Notes under the pieces: model-generated
Told to the model about the DNA's origin: nothing
Database searches by the model: none
Seen by the model: the letters and a program-made list of their open reading frames with translations, nothing else
Shown here: positions 55,155-63,104 of the stretch, one piece after another
How the letters are laid out: every line of letters begins with the position of its first letter
How positions within the stretch are numbered: the stretch's first letter is position 1
Assembly: GCA_944325895.1 (NCBI GenBank)
Contig: CALVCA010000003.1
Coordinates: 1-64,000 of the forward strand
Length of the DNA stretch: 64,000 nucleotides
Reading direction: 5' to 3'
Source: Candidatus Gastranaerophilales bacterium
GTDB taxonomy: Bacteria; Cyanobacteriota; Vampirovibrionia; Gastranaerophilales; Gastranaerophilaceae
Program-made: the position numbers and the translations under genes

Positions 55155-55195
55155 AATAAAAAAATTTATATAACAAACCAAAAATTTTCAAAATT

Positions 55196-55258
55196 ACGTC
55201 AGAGCGTTAGCGAAGCAGCAAAAGAGATTCTTCGGGCAAAAGCCCTCAGAATGACGGA
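55196..55258. repeat. REP-like palindromic element
   Basis: Imperfect inverted repeat opening GTCAGAGCGTTAGCGAAGC and closing CCTCAGAATGACGGAC, the common CGTCATTCTGAG-type dispersed palindrome. Related units occur in the prepilin at 26897-26996. Lies in the dnaE to tRNA-Gly gap. Confidence 0.65.
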
Positions 55259-55309
55259 CTTTTAATAGTGTCTGTAAAATTTGCTATATAAGCTCCTAAA
55301 AAAAAACAC

Positions 55310-55492: not shown

Positions 55493-55567
55493 ATGGATAA
55501 TAACTTTATGACCATATTTGTCGTAACGGTAATTTATTATGTCTATGTAAGCCGCAAAGGAGGCTAA
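55493..55567 (+). CDS. 24-codon hydrophobic upstream ORF
   Basis: Encodes a short peptide with a hydrophobic core (MTIFVVTVIYYVYV). Its last codons contain the AAAGGAGG RBS of the next gene, and the stop is two bases before that gene's ATG. It also contains the TATGAC-N7-GTCGTA inverted motif. No good RBS of its own, so translation is uncertain; a leader peptide is possible. Confidence 0.25.
   Translation: MDNNFMTIFVVTVIYYVYVSRKGG
55507..55525. promoter_or_regulatory. Putative WYL-regulator operator upstream of the CRISPR island
   Basis: TATGAC-CATATTT-GTCGTA. The same inverted motif with the same 7-base spacer (TATGAC-CGTTTTT-GTCATA) lies in the promoter region of the WYL gene at 61497-62459. 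Across 20 bases the two differ at three positions. It lies 45 bases before the ATG at 55570. Confidence 0.5.
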
Positions 55568-55569
55568 AT

Positions 55570-56160
55570 ATGGACGAAATAAAATTACAAATCAAAGGCA
55601 AGGAACACGATACATACGTAATTCATTATTCATGCGACGGATTTTATAACGGAGGTGCTTATGCTCCTGCAATATGCTCTATTTCATTGGTTAATTATGG
55701 AACAAAAGAATTACACTCTTTTGCTTTGAACAATTACCTTGTACTTGGTAAATCGCTTATGGAAAGTGAACAACAATTGCTTAAAGATTTTGTTGAATTT
55801 TATAAAAATTTAAACAATCCGATTTTTGTTCACTGGAATATGGACTATTTGGAATTCGGATTTAACACAATTCGTGCCCGTGCAGAAAATTTTGGGCTGC
55901 ACGATTTTGATTTAACGAAAATAAGAGATTACAATTTATGTGCAGTTTTTCACACAAGTCTTATTACTAGCCTTGAACAGAATAATTGTAAACGGGTTAC
56001 CGTCCTCAATGGCAAAGATGAAGCAAGTTGTTTTAATAAACGTGCGTTTGAAATGGTTAAAATGTCGACGGAAGGCAAAGTTCTCGGATTAGTTGACTTG
56101 TTTGAAAAATATCTTTCAAATGACTTAAAGGACAGTAGTGAAGATGATTATATTTATTAA
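55570..56160 (+). CDS. Unknown protein, possible RNase H-like/exonuclease fold, CRISPR-linked
   Basis: 196 aa, no membrane segment, with a strong AAAGGAGG RBS. The middle (ESEQQLLKDFVEFYKNLNNP then FVHWNMDYLEFGFN) resembles the central part of DEDD 3'-5' exonucleases, where a helix precedes a strand carrying an N-x-D motif. A clear D-x-E first motif is not visible (the region reads YSCDGFYNGG), so catalysis is in doubt. Lies tail-to-tail with the tracrRNA and 147 bases before cas9 on the same strand, behind the shared operator motif. Could be a new accessory factor of this type II-C system or an unrelated passenger. Confidence 0.5.
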   Translation: MDEIKLQIKGKEHDTYVIHYSCDGFYNGGAYAPAICSISLVNYGTKELHSFALNNYLVLGKSLMESEQQLLKDFVEFYKNLNNPIFVHWNMDYLEFGFNTIRARAENFGLHDFDLTKIRDYNLCAVFHTSLITSLEQNNCKRVTVLNGKDEASCFNKRAFEMVKMSTEGKVLGLVDLFEKYLSNDLKDSSEDDYIY

Positions 56161-56174
56161 AAAACTATGAAGGC

Positions 56175-56256
56175 TAAAAAGAAGATGTCCGGTTTCCCGG
56201 ACAGAACTTCACGAAACTTTCTTATTATAGTAACGTTTCGAAAGTATTTATTGTAT
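56175..56256 (-). ncRNA. tracrRNA, read leftward and divergently from cas9
   Basis: Positions 56224-56259 match the array repeat at 30 of 36 bases, in the orientation expected of an anti-repeat. When paired with the crRNA repeat, mismatches cluster at repeat positions 9, 10 and 12, giving the usual internal bulge. After the anti-repeat come ACTATAATAAG, similar to the conserved start of the tracrRNA tail in Neisseria-type II-C systems, and a terminator hairpin GTCCGG-GAAA-CCGGAC (56187-56202) with an outer GAAG/CTTC pair and a T5 run at 56176-56180. A consensus promoter precedes it. Ends are estimated. Confidence 0.9.
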
Positions 56257-56262
56257 GATATT

Positions 56263-56290
56263 ATTATAAAATAATAAATTTATTTGTCAA
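56263..56290 (-). promoter_or_regulatory. tracrRNA promoter
   Basis: Perfect TTGACA (56285-56290), 16-base spacer and perfect TATAAT (56263-56268) on the minus strand. Start would fall near 56256, at the beginning of the anti-repeat. The -35 box lies only 5 bases from the cas9 RBS. Confidence 0.85.
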
Positions 56291-56307
56291 CATTGGAGTA
56301 TAGAATA

Positions 56308-59300
56308 ATGGTTAAAGTATTAGGTTTAGATATTGGTATCGCATCAATTGGACATTCAATTGTAGAATTTGATGAAAAAGAACTTACTGGAAAATTTTTA
56401 AATTTAGGTGTTAGAGTTTTTACTGCTGCTGAACAACCAAAGACAGGAGCATCACTGGCTCAACCTAGAAGAGAAGCACGAAGTGCAAGACGCAGGTTGT
56501 CAAGACGTGCAAACCGTTTATATAATATTAAAAAATTTTTAATAGAAAAAAAATTTATTACTCAAGCTGAAATTGAAACTTTTTATAATTCAGCTGAAAT
56601 AAAAATTGATGTGTGGAATTTACGCAAAGAAGCGTTGGAAAGGCAATTGAGCAATATAGAATTTTATAGGATTTTAATACATATAGCAAAACGCAGGGGA
56701 TTTCAATCTATAAGAAAATCCGAAGAAGCAAAAACAGAAGGAGATTTATTAAAATCAATAAAGGAAACAACAGAAAATTTCGAACTGGGAAAATACAAAA
56801 CTGTTGGCGAAATGTTTGCACTTAAATATACCAATGATGAAGCAAAAAGAAATAAAGCAGGAAAATATAACAAATCTATTTCAAGAGAGTTGTTAAAACA
56901 AGAAATAGAAACTATTTTTAAAATACAACGAGATTTAGGTTCTAATATTGCAAGCGAAGAAATAGAAAATGGTTATAAAGAAATAGCATTTTACCAAAGG
57001 CCCTTGAAATCAATTCCTATAAATACTCCTTGTATTTTTGAACCTGATGAAATGAGAGCTCCGAAATGTTCTTATACTTCGGAAATTTTTATTGCTTTAA
57101 ATAAGCTTGTAAATATGCGTTTTATAAACGATGTTGGTGATACACGATTTCTTACGGCAGAAGAAATTGAAGATGCCATAAATCTTGCTCATAAACTTAC
57201 TAAAGTTACTTATAAACAATTAAGAAAAGAGCTTGGTATAGACAATGATATAAGATTTTTAAATCTTAATTATGGTAAAACGAATTCAAAAGGAGAAACA
57301 ATTGATATTGAAAATACAACTTTAATTGAACTTAAAAATTATCATGCCGTTAAAAAAGCAATAGTAGAGTCAGAACTGGGAAAATCATATTTTGATACGA
57401 TAAAAAATGATGAAAACTTTTTTAATGATATTGCTTTAGTTTTAACTTGTGAAAAAAGTGATGAGAGTATAGAAAAAGCCTTAAAAGAAAAAGGATTTGA
57501 AAATACAATAATAAATCTCGTCAAAGGGCTTTCAATGAGCAAAACTGCACATCTTTCAATTAAAGCAATGAAAAAACTTATTCCATTTATGATGCAAGGT
57601 ATGAAATATAGTGAAGCATGCGAAAAAGCCGGTTACAAAATTGAAAATAATAAAAAAGAAAAACAATCTTTACTTCCTGTTTTAAGCCAGGAAGAACTCA
57701 CAACAAACCCTGTTGTAAATAGAGCCATATCTCAAACAAGAAAAGTAGTAAATTCTTTAATTAAAAAATATGGTCCTTTTGATACTATAATTATTGAAAT
57801 GTCTAGAGATTTATCCAAATCAGTTACTGAAAGACGGGCAATTAAAAAAGCTCAAGACGAATTTCAGGCAGAAAAAGAAAAAGCCAAACAAAGGTGCATA
57901 GAACACGGTTTGAATCCGGATAATCCTAAAAGCAATCTTCTTAAATTCCGTCTTTGGGAAGAACAAGGAGGCTTCTGCGTTTATTCAGGTAAATACATTG
58001 ACCCGAAAAGGCTTGCTGAATCTGATTATGTTGATATAGATCATATTATTCCGTATTCAAGGAGTTTTGACGATAGCATAAATAATAAGGTGCTTTGTTT
58101 AACGGATGAAAATAGACAAAAAGGTAACAAAATACCCTATGAATATATTAGCGAAGATAAATGGTATGAATTTGTACAACGCATCAAATCTTATCATTTG
58201 AAGCAAGCAAAGATTAATCGTTTAACAAAGAAAAAATATGAACAGGAAGGTTTTAAATCAAGAAATTTAAACGACGCAAGGTACATTGCAAAATTTGTCA
58301 AAGATTATATAAAAGAGAACCTTGATTTTGATAATAATCTGAAAGTCGAGACAAGAAACGGTGCACTAACAGCATTTTTACGCACGCAATGGGGACTTGT
58401 AAAGAACAGGGATGAAAGTGACAAACATCATGCTCTTGATGCAGCTGTTATTGCTTGTTCAACACAGGGAATGGTTCAATATTTATCTACTGTTTCAGCA
58501 AGACTTGAAAATTATGATTATACAAAAGATAGAAAACCTCGTTTCAAAAAACCTTGGGAAACTTTTTCTGAAGATCTTGAACAGTTATTAAAACAGGTTT
58601 TTGTATCAAGGGCCGTTAGAAAGTCCGTTAAAGGAGAATTGCATGACGCAACAATAAGAAGTGCAAAACATCTTGATAAAGGCTTTACTACGGTTAAGAC
58701 ACCTATTGAAACAATTGATCTAAAAAAATTGGAAAAAATGTTTGACAAAGAACGAAATTATAAAATTTATAATGTTTTAAAAGAAAGATTAGAGAAATTT
58801 AATAATGATCCTAAAAAAGCTTTTGCAGAACCGGTATACATGCCTTTATCCGAAGAAAAAATGGCAAAAGGGCAACATCCGCATGAAATAAAATCAATAA
58901 AAATTAAAGATACCAGCACCTCAGGTATTTTAGTCAGAGGCGGATTTGCGAAAAATTCGTCTATGCCTAGATTGGATATCTTTACCAAAAAGAATAAAAA
59001 AGGCAAAAATGAATTTTTCCTGGTACCAATTTATGTATCGGATTTTGGGAAAGAATTACCCAATAAAGCTATTACAAACAAAAAAGACTGCTGGCTGGAA
59101 ATTACAGACGAATACCAATTTTTATTCAGCCTATTCCCCGATACTTTGATAGCAATAAACCCGACAGGAAAACCGGAGGATGAATTTTTAGGATATTATA
59201 AATGCTGTGACATTAGCAACGGAGTTTTAAAAATAGATTCTCCTGATAGAAATATCGTTGAAAAACGTTATGCTACAAAAACTGCAGCTTACATAAAAAA

Positions 59301-59394
59301 ATATCAAGTCGGAATACTCGGTGATTATTATGAGGTAAAACATGAAAAACGATTACCCATAAAAACAAAAAGAAAGGTAAAACATGGGATATAA
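56308..59394 (+). CDS. cas9: CRISPR-associated endonuclease Cas9, type II-C
   Basis: 1028 aa, the compact II-C size. RuvC-I (VLGLDIGIASIGHSIVEF) holds Asp8; an Arg-rich bridge helix follows (RREARSARRRLSRRANRLY, about 50-75) and then the recognition lobe. RuvC-II (IIIEMSRDLS) holds Glu497. The HNH domain holds DIDHII with His579 and ENRQKGN with Asn602, and RuvC-III (DKHHALDAAVI) holds His708 and Asp711. All nuclease residues are intact, so both DNA strands should be cut. A wedge/PAM-interacting domain ends the protein. GGAG at 56295-56298 fixes the ATG at 56308 over an upstream TTG at 56284. Overlaps cas1 by 11 bases. Confidence 0.97.
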   Translation: MVKVLGLDIGIASIGHSIVEFDEKELTGKFLNLGVRVFTAAEQPKTGASLAQPRREARSARRRLSRRANRLYNIKKFLIEKKFITQAEIETFYNSAEIKIDVWNLRKEALERQLSNIEFYRILIHIAKRRGFQSIRKSEEAKTEGDLLKSIKETTENFELGKYKTVGEMFALKYTNDEAKRNKAGKYNKSISRELLKQEIETIFKIQRDLGSNIASEEIENGYKEIAFYQRPLKSIPINTPCIFEPDEMRAPKCSYTSEIFIALNKLVNMRFINDVGDTRFLTAEEIEDAINLAHKLTKVTYKQLRKELGIDNDIRFLNLNYGKTNSKGETIDIENTTLIELKNYHAVKKAIVESELGKSYFDTIKNDENFFNDIALVLTCEKSDESIEKALKEKGFENTIINLVKGLSMSKTAHLSIKAMKKLIPFMMQGMKYSEACEKAGYKIENNKKEKQSLLPVLSQEELTTNPVVNRAISQTRKVVNSLIKKYGPFDTIIIEMSRDLSKSVTERRAIKKAQDEFQAEKEKAKQRCIEHGLNPDNPKSNLLKFRLWEEQGGFCVYSGKYIDPKRLAESDYVDIDHIIPYSRSFDDSINNKVLCLTDENRQKGNKIPYEYISEDKWYEFVQRIKSYHLKQAKINRLTKKKYEQEGFKSRNLNDARYIAKFVKDYIKENLDFDNNLKVETRNGALTAFLRTQWGLVKNRDESDKHHALDAAVIACSTQGMVQYLSTVSARLENYDYTKDRKPRFKKPWETFSEDLEQLLKQVFVSRAVRKSVKGELHDATIRSAKHLDKGFTTVKTPIETIDLKKLEKMFDKERNYKIYNVLKERLEKFNNDPKKAFAEPVYMPLSEEKMAKGQHPHEIKSIKIKDTSTSGILVRGGFAKNSSMPRLDIFTKKNKKGKNEFFLVPIYVSDFGKELPNKAITNKKDCWLEITDEYQFLFSLFPDTLIAINPTGKPEDEFLGYYKCCDISNGVLKIDSPDRNIVEKRYATKTAAYIKKYQVGILGDYYEVKHEKRLPIKTKRKVKHGI

Positions 59395-60265
59395 AACTCT
59401 TTTGTTTAGCAATCCTTGTAAACTTAGCGTTAAAAACTTTCAACTTGTGTATTCATCACAAGACAGCGAGATAAAAATTCCGCTTGAAGATATTTCTACA
59501 ATAATACTTGAAAATATGCAGATAGAAGTTACAAACTATCTTTTATCTGCATGTGGTGAATATAATATTACATTGTTTTCATGCGATAAAAAACATCGCC
59601 CGAACGTGGTTTTGACACCATTTTACCAGCATAGCAGAAATACAAAAATTGCTTTTAATCATATAAATATGTCTGAACCTTTGAAAAAAAGATTATGGCA
59701 AAAAATTATAAAACAAAAAATTAAAAATCAGTCTAATGTTTTAAAAATACTATTTGATAATGATATTTTGGATTATTTTTGTGAAAAAGTTAAATCCGGT
59801 GATACTACCAATATAGAAGCTCAAGTTTCAAAACAATACTGGGGTCTGTTGTTTGAAAATTTTAAACGTCATGCAGATACAAAACATAATGCAGCACTGG
59901 ATTACGGTTATGCAATAATCAGAGGTACACTGGCAAAATTCACATCGTCAAGCGGTCTTATCCCGTGCATTGGAGTTCATCATTGTAATGAGCTTAACTC
60001 TTTTAATCTGATCGAAGATTTAATAGAACCATTTAGACCTTTTGTTGATTTACTTGTATCAAATATGCAAACTTTAAATGAACCTGAATTATCCAAGCAA
60101 GATAAAGCATGCCTTTTGAATATATTAAACATGCAATGCCAGTATAAAGGTGAACAAATTACTGTTCAAAATGCTTGCGAAAGAGTTTGTCAAACTTTTG
60201 TAAAAAGTCTTGAACAAAATAACAGTAATATATTGGAACTTCCACAATTTATTGAGGCAAAATGA
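59384..60265 (+). CDS. cas1: CRISPR integrase Cas1, type II
   Basis: 293 aa. N-terminal beta domain, then the helical catalytic domain with the metal-binding Glu in NIEAQVSKQYW, the His in GVHHCNELNSFNL and the acidic pair in LIEDLIEPFRPFVD. With Cas2 it inserts new spacers. The ATG overlaps the end of cas9 by 11 bases and its stop overlaps cas2 by 4, so the three genes are one translationally coupled operon. No csn2 or cas4 is present, which defines subtype II-C. Confidence 0.96.
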   Translation: MGYKTLLFSNPCKLSVKNFQLVYSSQDSEIKIPLEDISTIILENMQIEVTNYLLSACGEYNITLFSCDKKHRPNVVLTPFYQHSRNTKIAFNHINMSEPLKKRLWQKIIKQKIKNQSNVLKILFDNDILDYFCEKVKSGDTTNIEAQVSKQYWGLLFENFKRHADTKHNAALDYGYAIIRGTLAKFTSSSGLIPCIGVHHCNELNSFNLIEDLIEPFRPFVDLLVSNMQTLNEPELSKQDKACLLNILNMQCQYKGEQITVQNACERVCQTFVKSLEQNNSNILELPQFIEAK

Positions 60266-60594
60266 GCGTAAAAGGTGACGATATTTTTATGAGATTATTT
60301 GTATTTTTTGATCTTCCTGTAACTCAAAAGAAACAGCGAAAAATAGCAACCCGCTTCAGAAAACAATTACTTAATGAAGGTTTTATTATGCTTCAATTTT
60401 CTGTTTATTGCAGGACATGCCGAGGTCAGGATATTGTAGACAGAGAAATTCGTCGAATTAAACAGATTATTCCGCCTGAAGGTAACGTCCGAATTCTTCA
60501 GGTAACAGACAAACAATATGGAGGCATGCTTTTTCTTGTCGGCAAACCTGAAAAAGAAGAAATTATTGGATGCGAACAACTTCTTTTGTTTTAA
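60262..60594 (+). CDS. cas2: CRISPR-associated protein Cas2
   Basis: 110 aa ferredoxin-like protein that bridges Cas1 dimers during spacer integration. FVFFDLPVTQKKQRK carries the conserved Asp after the first strand, and LQFSVYCRTCRGQD is the second family block. Starts in an ATGA overlap with cas1. The minus-strand crRNA terminator lies directly behind it. Confidence 0.95.
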   Translation: MSVKGDDIFMRLFVFFDLPVTQKKQRKIATRFRKQLLNEGFIMLQFSVYCRTCRGQDIVDREIRRIKQIIPPEGNVRILQVTDKQYGGMLFLVGKPEKEEIIGCEQLLLF

Positions 60595-60602
60595 AATTTT
60601 TT

Positions 60603-60654
60603 GTAATAAAAATACCAAACTCCTTGTCTATAGCAGATTTTGGAGTTTGGTATT
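60603..60654 (-). terminator. Terminator for the minus-strand CRISPR transcript
   Basis: A perfect 13-bp stem (60611-60623/60642-60654, 18-base loop) reaches three bases into the last repeat and is followed on the minus strand by TTTTATTAC. On the plus side no T run follows. This fits crRNA transcription leftward toward cas2. Confidence 0.7.
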
Positions 60655-61477
60655 ATACAATAAATATTTTCGAAAGGAAACTATAACATCTTCTGTACAT
60701 TCAAAAGTATCAAGATAATTATACAATAAATATTTTCGAAAGGAAACTATAACAATTCAGCGGTGTTGACTTAAATGCCTGGAATTATACAATAAATATT
60801 TTCGAAAGGAAACTATAACTATCTCAGATGTATAATATTTTTGACCTTTATTATACAATAAATATTTTCGAAAGGAAACTATAACAATTATATAGTTGAC
60901 AAATATATCGATTTGATTATACAATAAATATTTTCGAAAGGAAACTATAACTTTAAACCATATTCACCGCAATGCATAAAATTATACAATAAATATTTTC
61001 GAAAGGAAACTATAACGCTTGTAATGCTTTCGAAAATCCAAAATTAATTATACAATAAATATTTTCGAAAGGAAACTATAACTTGACCTGTAACTTAAAT
61101 ATATCTTAAAATATTATACAATAAATATTTTCGAAAGGAAACTATAACATTGCGTCAAGCGTTCCAAATGCAGGCATAATTATACAATAAATATTTTCGA
61201 AAGGAAACTATAACTTGTCGTCCTTCCGGTAGTTCAGGCGGTCCATTATACAATAAATATTTTCGAAAGGAAACTATAACCAACTGGGCGAGGTGACAGT
61301 CAATTTTTTTATTATACAATAAATATTTTCGAAAGGAAACTATAACGAGTAGGGGTAGAGGTTTGTGTTTCGATATATTATACAATAAATATTTTCTAAT
61401 GGAAACTATAACAATCCCGAAGAATTGGTGCAACTTATGTCATTATACAATAAATACTTTCAAACAAAGGTGCTGGC
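60652..61477 (-). CRISPR. Type II-C CRISPR array, 36-nt repeats, 12 spacers
   Basis: Eleven identical 36-base repeats (plus strand ATTATACAATAA...GAAACTATAAC), the first at 60652-60687 and the eleventh at 61311-61346. A twelfth (61377-61412) has two changes, and a thirteenth (61442-61477) keeps only its first 20 bases, with one change. Spacers are 30 bases, two of them 29, all different from one another. In crRNA sense (minus strand) the repeat starts GTTATAGTTTCC and ends TTGTATAAT, like Campylobacter/Neisseria II-C repeats. The degenerate repeats lie at the promoter end, intact ones next to cas2. The terminal TATAAT could be a promoter box within each repeat, though no good -35 accompanies it. 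Confidence 0.98.
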
Positions 61478-61482
61478 GGAGC

Positions 61483-61511
61483 ATTATAAAAACACTTCAA
61501 TAATTTTCCAA
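61483..61511 (-). promoter_or_regulatory. Putative promoter of the CRISPR array
   Basis: TTGGAA (61506-61511), a 17-base spacer and a perfect TATAAT (61483-61488) on the minus strand, overlapping the 3' end of the WYL gene. The start would lie near 61476, the outer end of the degenerate last repeat. Confidence 0.5.
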
Positions 61512-62459
61512 ATTTTCTTTCAAATATTTTATATATTCTTCTTTGAGGGATTTTGGTGTAATTATTTTACACCCTGCACCCCAACGGAATACATGCCAGA
61601 TAATTTCCCTGCTGCCGCTTGCTTTGAAATAAACCGTATAAGTCCCGTCATCATTCCATTTGCCTGATTGTGTCGGATGAAAATTGAATTGGCTTGCTTC
61701 CTGTGACAGGTCTTGCGAAAACAATAGTTCTACCTCCAAAATTTCACCGTGATAAACTCCAAACGACAAATTTGTGTATTTTTGCAGATCAAAATCACCT
61801 TTATCAAAGGTTTTATCTGTTAATTTCAGATTTTCAAATTTATGTAAAAGATAATTATAAATCCCGTCACCTTTTGATTTTTCACGAGCAACAAGATAAA
61901 TCTTTTCTCCGTAAATCATACCCAAAGGTTCAATTAAACGTTCTTTTTCATGATAAATGCCTGTAACCATTTTTGAATGCTGAACAGCCTCACGAATAAC
62001 CTCTAAAGTTTCAAGGCTGATTTTATATTGCGGCATCTGTCTGACGGCATAGCCTTCTGTCTGCATATAAAGTTCAATATTATTTTCCAGCGGATGTGTG
62101 TGTTTTCTGTTCAACGATTTAAGTTTTTCAACGGTTTTCCCGAGTTCTTCTTTCATCTCCTTATTCGTAGTACGTCTTTGAAGCTGCTCAATATTTGCAA
62201 TCTCTTTCGGGGTAAATGAAATCAGGTTTGAAATAGAATAGTTGACAAAACCCCAGTGTTTTTGTGTGTCGTCTGTTTCAATCTCATCAACGGACGGAAA
62301 AATACAAGTCAGACTATCACGCATACGCTCTGCCGTTCTGCGGGAAACATTGTACCTTTCAGCAATTTCTGTTATAGTAACCCCTTGAATTTTTGACGAC
62401 ATAAAAATCGCAAGGTCTAAAATATCTGAAATTCTTGAATATCTTGGCTTATATGACAT
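61497..62459 (-). CDS. HTH-WYL transcriptional regulator adjoining the CRISPR array
   Basis: 320 aa. An N-terminal helix-turn-helix (about 25-55; ITEIAERYNVSRRTAERMR) is followed by a helical linker, a WYL domain (about 140-215; MVTGIYHEKERLIEPLGMIYG, KIYLVAREKS) and a WCX C terminus (about 225-320; FRWGAGCKIITPKSL). AGGAG RBS. WYL proteins control CRISPR and other defence loci in cyanobacteria and elsewhere. It ends 20 bases from the array and a motif in its own promoter recurs before the island's first gene, so it is a good candidate regulator of the whole locus. Repressor or activator not decidable. Confidence 0.88.
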   Translation of the reverse strand: MSYKPRYSRISDILDLAIFMSSKIQGVTITEIAERYNVSRRTAERMRDSLTCIFPSVDEIETDDTQKHWGFVNYSISNLISFTPKEIANIEQLQRRTTNKEMKEELGKTVEKLKSLNRKHTHPLENNIELYMQTEGYAVRQMPQYKISLETLEVIREAVQHSKMVTGIYHEKERLIEPLGMIYGEKIYLVAREKSKGDGIYNYLLHKFENLKLTDKTFDKGDFDLQKYTNLSFGVYHGEILEVELLFSQDLSQEASQFNFHPTQSGKWNDDGTYTVYFKASGSREIIWHVFRWGAGCKIITPKSLKEEYIKYLKENLENY

Positions 62460-62494
62460 AATTTTCTCCTAAACTTAAATTTATTATACACCAA

Positions 62495-62513
62495 TATGAC
62501 CGTTTTTGTCATA
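62495..62513. promoter_or_regulatory. Putative autoregulatory operator of the WYL gene
   Basis: TATGAC-CGTTTTT-GTCATA, a perfect 6-bp inverted repeat upstream of the WYL gene's -10 (TATAAT on the minus strand, near 62483) and covering its -35 region. Counterpart at 55507-55525. Confidence 0.55.
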
Positions 62514-62627
62514 ATTTAAAATTATAATATGGCAGAAATAAATTCAAAAACTCATATTCTCATAAATTTTATTTTTTATTAACAAAAATAAAATTTACGG
62601 GATTTATATAAATATAAGGAACTAATT

Positions 62628-63104
62628 ATGAATACGATAAACAATCAACCTAATTTTACGGCAAGACTTGATATCAACAAACTCAACGGCAAACGATGGC
62701 AAAATATTGCACAAATTTTTGCCTGGAAAACAATGAAATACCCGAAAGATACTTTTGTTTTGACACCGCACGAAAACGGCGATATGACAATATATCAAGT
62801 ATTTCCGGGATCTAGCATAAATTACCACAGCAAACTTCGTAAAAGACAGACAGAAAATTTGCTGAAAAATTCTGACGAAACAATTGCTGAATCATTTGTA
62901 AGATTATTAGAAACAGTTAAATTTCACCATAGAAAAATCCAACATACAAATAAATTTTTAAACGCAATACAATTAGAAAGTAACGAAAAAGATACAGATT
63001 TCAGCACTAAAATTTGGGAAATTGTGTTTGAAAAATATTCAAAAGATATTGAAAAATCATTAAGCACAGATCCGCTTTTAAGAGTTTTTAAGAAAAATCA
63101 ATAA
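62628..63104 (+). CDS. 158-aa protein of unknown function
   Basis: Soluble, basic. Opens MNTINNQPNFTARLDINKL; the NFTARL leader recalls the SFKG and SFGG leaders of the proteins at 295 and 24895. The rest is mainly helical (ETIAESFVRLLETVKFHHRKI) with a short beta portion (DTFVLTPHENGDMTIYQVF). AAGGA RBS 7-8 bases before the ATG. Stands alone between the CRISPR island and tRNA-Ser. No family recognised. Confidence 0.6.
   Translation: MNTINNQPNFTARLDINKLNGKRWQNIAQIFAWKTMKYPKDTFVLTPHENGDMTIYQVFPGSSINYHSKLRKRQTENLLKNSDETIAESFVRLLETVKFHHRKIQHTNKFLNAIQLESNEKDTDFSTKIWEIVFEKYSKDIEKSLSTDPLLRVFKKNQ

Follow-up and report, generated by a model that had tools for sequence, protein, structure and literature searches.

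Putative operators of a DriD homologue at a type II-C CRISPR-Cas9 island in a Gastranaerophilales bacterium

The CRISPR-Cas9 island and its bordering genes

The window, i.e., the whole 64,000-nucleotide stretch of Candidatus Gastranaerophilales DNA that was analysed, holds a CRISPR-Cas9 island that can be assigned to type II-C, as its only cas genes are cas9, cas1, and cas2, its repeat is 36 bp long, and its tracrRNA carries a matching anti-repeat. Three of these features lie on the plus strand: cas9 (56308..59394, 1028 aa), cas1 (59384..60265), and cas2 (60262..60594). The CRISPR array follows (60652..61478), with its crRNA sense on the minus strand (GTTATAGTTTCC...TATAAT) and its repeats degenerate at the end that faces a gene for a WYL regulator (61497..62459, minus strand, 320 aa, HTH-WYL-WCX). 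This gene points toward the array and no terminator is predicted for it, so that WYL mRNA could read into the array. Every repeat of the array at 60652-61478 ends in TATAAT, which makes an extended -10 element, and repeat-borne promoters are known for II-C arrays.

Upstream of cas9 on the plus strand is a gene for a 196 aa protein (55570..56160, hereafter g55570). Between g55570 and cas9, in antisense, comparison with the repeat predicts a tracrRNA (56186..56258, minus strand) consisting of the anti-repeat and then a terminator hairpin (56203-56186), and tracrRNA homologues are found at the same place in relatives. Its promoter (56263..56290, minus strand) is a perfect consensus, TTGACA-16-TATAAT, without an operator. 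No plus-strand terminator was predicted between g55570 and cas9, so read-through from the former into the latter is likely; a weak promoter-like match is also present at 56238-56267, and cas9 may have its own promoter. Beyond the WYL gene and divergent from it lies a gene for a 158 aa protein of unassigned family (62628..63104, plus strand, hereafter 62628). On the other side, the island is bordered by a tRNA-Gly gene, and between that gene and dnaE lies a dispersed repeat (55160-55270, ending in ...AAAGCCCTCAGAATGACGGAC) with many copies in the genome.

The product of g55570 has the exonuclease fold of B-family DNA polymerases and lacks the conserved D-x-E. Its predicted structure (pLDDT 84) retrieved this fold in Foldseek with an E-value of 2.7e-5 and a TM-score of about 0.63, and the Pfam match to the B-family polymerase exonuclease was below the cut-off. 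NCBIfam gave no match, and sequence searches retrieved no solved relative. Among 17 homologues, the first strand reads IHYSCD or IHYACE and the acid pair of the catalytic D-x-E that defines the B-family polymerase 3'-5' exonuclease is not conserved.

Two putative operator sites and their promoter geometry

An inverted motif was originally predicted to bracket the CRISPR island and the WYL gene, and both copies are indeed present, differing at 3 of 19 positions. Site 1, TATGACCATATTTGTCGTA (55507..55525, plus strand), stands 44 nt before the ATG at 55570, and site 2, TATGACCGTTTTTGTCATA (62495..62513, plus strand), stands 35 nt before the ATG of the WYL gene. Whether such a motif is equally common at random places in the genome had been named as a point on which the prediction would fall, and the answer depends on how much of the element is counted. 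The short motif is unspecific: with one mismatch it has 24 matches in its own genome against 20 for a reversed control, and one further exact match (C5:32535) falls inside an unrelated ORF. The full element is specific: TRYGWCAAAWAYGGWCRTA with zero mismatches matches the 1.69 Mb genome twice, at sites 1 and 2, and the control nowhere. The same two sites are the only perfect matches in this genome when the operator is extended by 9 nt and TANNNT, again with none for the control. Across 16 genomes of the genus, the extended signature has 12 perfect matches and, with at most two mismatches, 43 matches versus 7 for the reversed control. A weight matrix trained on relatives only, with an expectation of about 0.3 matches per 64 kb at scores of 16 or more, gave the two sites scores of 27.6 and 25.5, and the next best score in the window was 15.6. 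We conclude that the two sites are a genuine regulatory pair.

Both operators overlap the -35 region of a promoter and both have their activating side to the right. Site 1 reads TATGACCATATTTGTCGTA-N9-TATTAT toward 55570 and then cas9, with the -10 box TATTAT (55535..55540, plus strand) exactly 9 nt past the operator and no good -35. Site 2 reads TATGACCGTTTTTGTCATA-N9-TATAAT toward 62628, its likely divergent target, with the -10 box TATAAT (62523..62528, plus strand) again exactly 9 nt past the operator. The operator core is asymmetric, with the fixed -10 box on one side only, and in relatives, when operators are read on one strand as TAYGACCRTWTTTGTCRTA, TANNNT occurs at offset 9 in 79 of 96 non-redundant operators, at offset 8 in one, and at offset 10 in none.

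On the minus strand, the WYL gene is preceded by its own promoter, ATGACA-18-TATAAT (62483..62512), whose -35 lies within site 2. The WYL protein had been proposed to be autoregulated, and an operator does stand before its gene; the activating side of that operator, however, points the other way, just as it does at Caulobacter driD, an arrangement that does not support simple autoregulation. Since site 2 covers the -35 of the WYL gene, binding there may still damp the gene by occlusion, a form of negative feedback.

By sequence, the WYL protein is a homologue of DriD, and the motif is the known DriD consensus, two points that the original prediction had missed. DriD of Caulobacter crescentus is an SOS-independent activator that responds to DNA damage (PDB 8tp8, 9pfq, 9pfv, and 9pga; PMC12340889). 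DriD and related WYL entries were the only significant PDB matches, at an E-value of 5e-38 from the single sequence and about 1e-50 from a profile, and the DriD entries matched include complexes with ssDNA, target DNA, and RNA polymerase. The homology spans the full length, with HTH, WYL, and WCX domains and 31% identity overall, and the stretch RRTAERMRD, which should hold the recognition helix, is identical in the two proteins. No match to BrxR, CapW, or PafBC was obtained in the PDB even at E 10, and a search of viral contigs with the WYL protein yielded no relatives.

The likeness extends to the DNA. The published DriD consensus is ATACGAC-N7-GTCGTAT, and DriD sites lie over poor -35 elements and keep a constant spacing to the -10 (PMC12340889); here the operator is likewise TACGAC-N7-GTCGTA with conserved guanines, lies over a poor -35, and keeps a fixed spacing to the -10. 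We counted the same 9 nt between operator and -10, in the same orientation, in two promoters whose sequences PMC12340889 prints, that of didA and that of the operon divergent from driD. At the driD locus itself, the target that DriD activates is this divergent operon, not driD (PMC12340889), just as the operator before the regulator gene in the window points at a divergent unit. The two systems differ in their targets, which are didA, bapE, dnaG, and recJ for DriD and would be g55570, 62628, and the CRISPR-Cas9 locus here, and in the WYL domain. In PafBC, an arginine pair, R-x-x-R, is required for ssDNA binding; this pair is not kept in the present protein, which has L-x-x-K at the position, conserved in its relatives, and the ligand may therefore differ from ssDNA. 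A PafBC-type promoter, which carries a TTGTC element near -26, was considered and dropped: the palindrome is complete, and the protein is homologous to DriD and not detectably to PafB or PafC.

Conservation of the sites and arrangement in relatives

Alignment of upstream regions had been suggested as a check on whether the motif is kept with the WYL gene, and TRYGWCAAAWAYGGWCRTA is matched 19 to 83 nt before the WYL start codon in 38 orthologue upstream regions. Across these 38 sites, variation is all but absent from the half-site guanines and from the central AAA and GG. The exact operator occurs in 48 of 239 genomes of the family, 40 of which are among the 101 genomes with a WYL homologue (Fisher p 1.6e-10, or 3e-14 for close homologues, with kinship among the 239 genomes not corrected for). 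Because the remaining 8 genomes carry the exact operator without a WYL gene, some sites are orphans or chance matches.

Site 1 is kept at eight other Cas9 loci, three of them without g55570. The nine operator-bearing Cas9 loci are not nine independent cases, since they form about six distinct sequence groups. In G006, G014, L095, L097, and G233, the operator lies about 45 bp before the g55570 orthologue, the same distance as in the window. In G159, G113, and G221, where g55570 is deleted, the tracrRNA-cas9 interval comes directly after the operator and its -10. Two of these tell against control by the WYL protein: G113 has the operator before cas9 but no WYL homologue at E<=1e-30, and the only WYL homologue in G221 is distant (38%). 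At four further Cas9 relatives (G107, G204, G141, and G169), no operator was found within 1 kb.

The WYL and g55570 genes also occur together without CRISPR. They lie tail to tail with overlapping stop codons in the CRISPR-less L034, L043, and L050, and divergently around one operator in other CRISPR-less relatives. In the window and in G006, G014, L095, and L097, the cassette of tracrRNA, cas9, cas1, cas2, and array sits exactly between the WYL and g55570 stops. As the cassette is also found without the WYL-g55570 pair, in G107, G204, and G141, insertion of the cassette is a simpler explanation than its loss. Both forms of the pair, with the cassette (L033) and without it (L034), lie about 25 kb apart on one contig (G014:C8), and in the CRISPR-bearing copy of G014, g55570 is shortened to about 127 aa. 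In G006 (C32:8054-8415), an intact operator stands before what is left of a broken WYL gene copy.

The genes most commonly found behind the operator-9-TANNNT element are relatives of g55570, of which 27 distinct sequences were found, down to about 33% identity. Further genes preceded by the operator encode an AAA ATPase, a UvrD-PDDEXK helicase-nuclease, an RNA-repair nucleotidyltransferase, and a metallo-beta-lactamase RNase. At L036 (G000:C29:3943-3976), a second operator-9-TANNNT element with 1 mismatch stands before a gene whose 658-aa AAA product has IetA/TRIP13-like matches; a WYL paralogue (54% identity) lies about 2 kb away. At L089:7591-10635 and L090:1961-5005, a gene just 3' of the WYL gene has its own operator and encodes a 1014-aa protein that joins a UvrD helicase to a PD-(D/E)XK (Cas4-like) nuclease and resembles GajB in PADLOC.

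Proposed regulation of the locus and its meaning

The WYL protein appears to have operators at both sites. The computation shows what the operator is, that it is conserved, that the protein is homologous to DriD, and how the promoters are laid out; activation rather than repression, ssDNA as the signal, and read-through into cas9 are inferred. The signal would be ssDNA arising from DNA damage, as in DriD, or perhaps from the replication of an invader. The activated dimer would bind the 19-bp element and bring RNA polymerase to a promoter whose -35 is poor and whose -10 is 9 nt past one end of the operator. From site 1, transcription would then run rightward through 55570 into cas9, cas1, and cas2, and from site 2 rightward into 62628. 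The original prediction that the WYL protein controls the first island gene fits the position of site 1 before 55570, and site 1 likely drives cas9 as well. Because the tracrRNA and the crRNAs have their own promoters without an operator, the levels set by the regulator would be those of Cas9 and the adaptation proteins. Taken together, the WYL protein is probably a DriD-type transcription activator with both sites as its operators and with g55570-cas9-cas1-cas2 and 62628 in its regulon.

The palindromes might be ascribed to chance on the grounds that the short motif, with one mismatch, barely outnumbers its control. We reject this with near certainty once the core and the -10 are counted in, as the full operator, with or without the -10, then matches two sites only and its control none, and as it is conserved in relatives with a fixed geometry. 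It is also rather unlikely that the WYL protein is a repressor that, like BrxR or CapW, covers the -35 of its own gene and of g55570-cas9 and is released on infection. The overlap of both operators with -35 regions and the good promoter of the WYL gene in site 2 would suit such a protein, and defence-associated WYL proteins such as BrxR do repress (PMC9122601). Repression, however, needs neither the strict 9-nt spacing nor promoters without a usable -35, such as those of g55570; the operator is the DriD consensus; and it is DriD, not the solved structures of BrxR, CapW, or PafBC, that the protein matches.

A less improbable alternative, though still one we doubt, is that the operator serves g55570 (and 62628) only, in which case cas9 would use a promoter of its own and the CRISPR cassette would be a passenger in a DriD-type regulon. 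WYL-g55570 pairs without CRISPR, Cas9 relatives without the operator, and the weak promoter-like match before cas9 all speak for it. Against it, the search for a terminator between 55570 and cas9 came up empty, and G159, G113, and G221 lack g55570 and yet have the operator and -10 immediately before cas9. The fuller reading, in which a DriD-type, ssDNA-responsive DNA-damage activator directly induces the II-C Cas9 and adaptation genes as an SOS-independent alarm, and in which the cassette was captured at the tail-to-tail junction of WYL and g55570, we put forward tentatively, as somewhat short of an even chance.

DriD and WYL-controlled defence loci are already known. SiwR of Mycobacterium smegmatis is likewise a WYL activator, with a 19-bp imperfect palindrome between the -35 and -10 of a neighbouring target, and it governs DinB-like genes, not CRISPR (PMC10693628). 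BrxR and CapW resemble the present protein in governing a defence locus via inverted repeats; unlike it, they are repressors, with BrxR sites made of 11-bp arms and a 5-bp spacer (PMC9122601), and they were not retrieved as its relatives. WYL proteins also adjoin CRISPR-Cas in the case of sll7009 (type I-D) and RspWYL1 (type VI-D). sll7009 regulates its type I-D locus, and we know of no use of DriD-type operators by sll7009 or RspWYL1. RspWYL1 differs in that it boosts Cas13d itself (PMC6547453). In the literature searched, we found no CRISPR-Cas9 locus behind DriD-type operators and nothing relevant on Gastranaerophilales CRISPR.

Little is known of how II-C CRISPR loci are induced, and the conserved operator of a named type with its fixed geometry makes DriD-type damage sensing a testable input for a Cas9 locus. 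The sites would also define a DriD-type regulon far from Caulobacter, in which a recurrent effector without an assigned function, g55570, would share its switch with other genes of DNA and RNA metabolism. As these switches match those of DriD in sequence and geometry, our analysis suggests that CRISPR immunity in this bacterium may be wired into a DNA-damage alarm.
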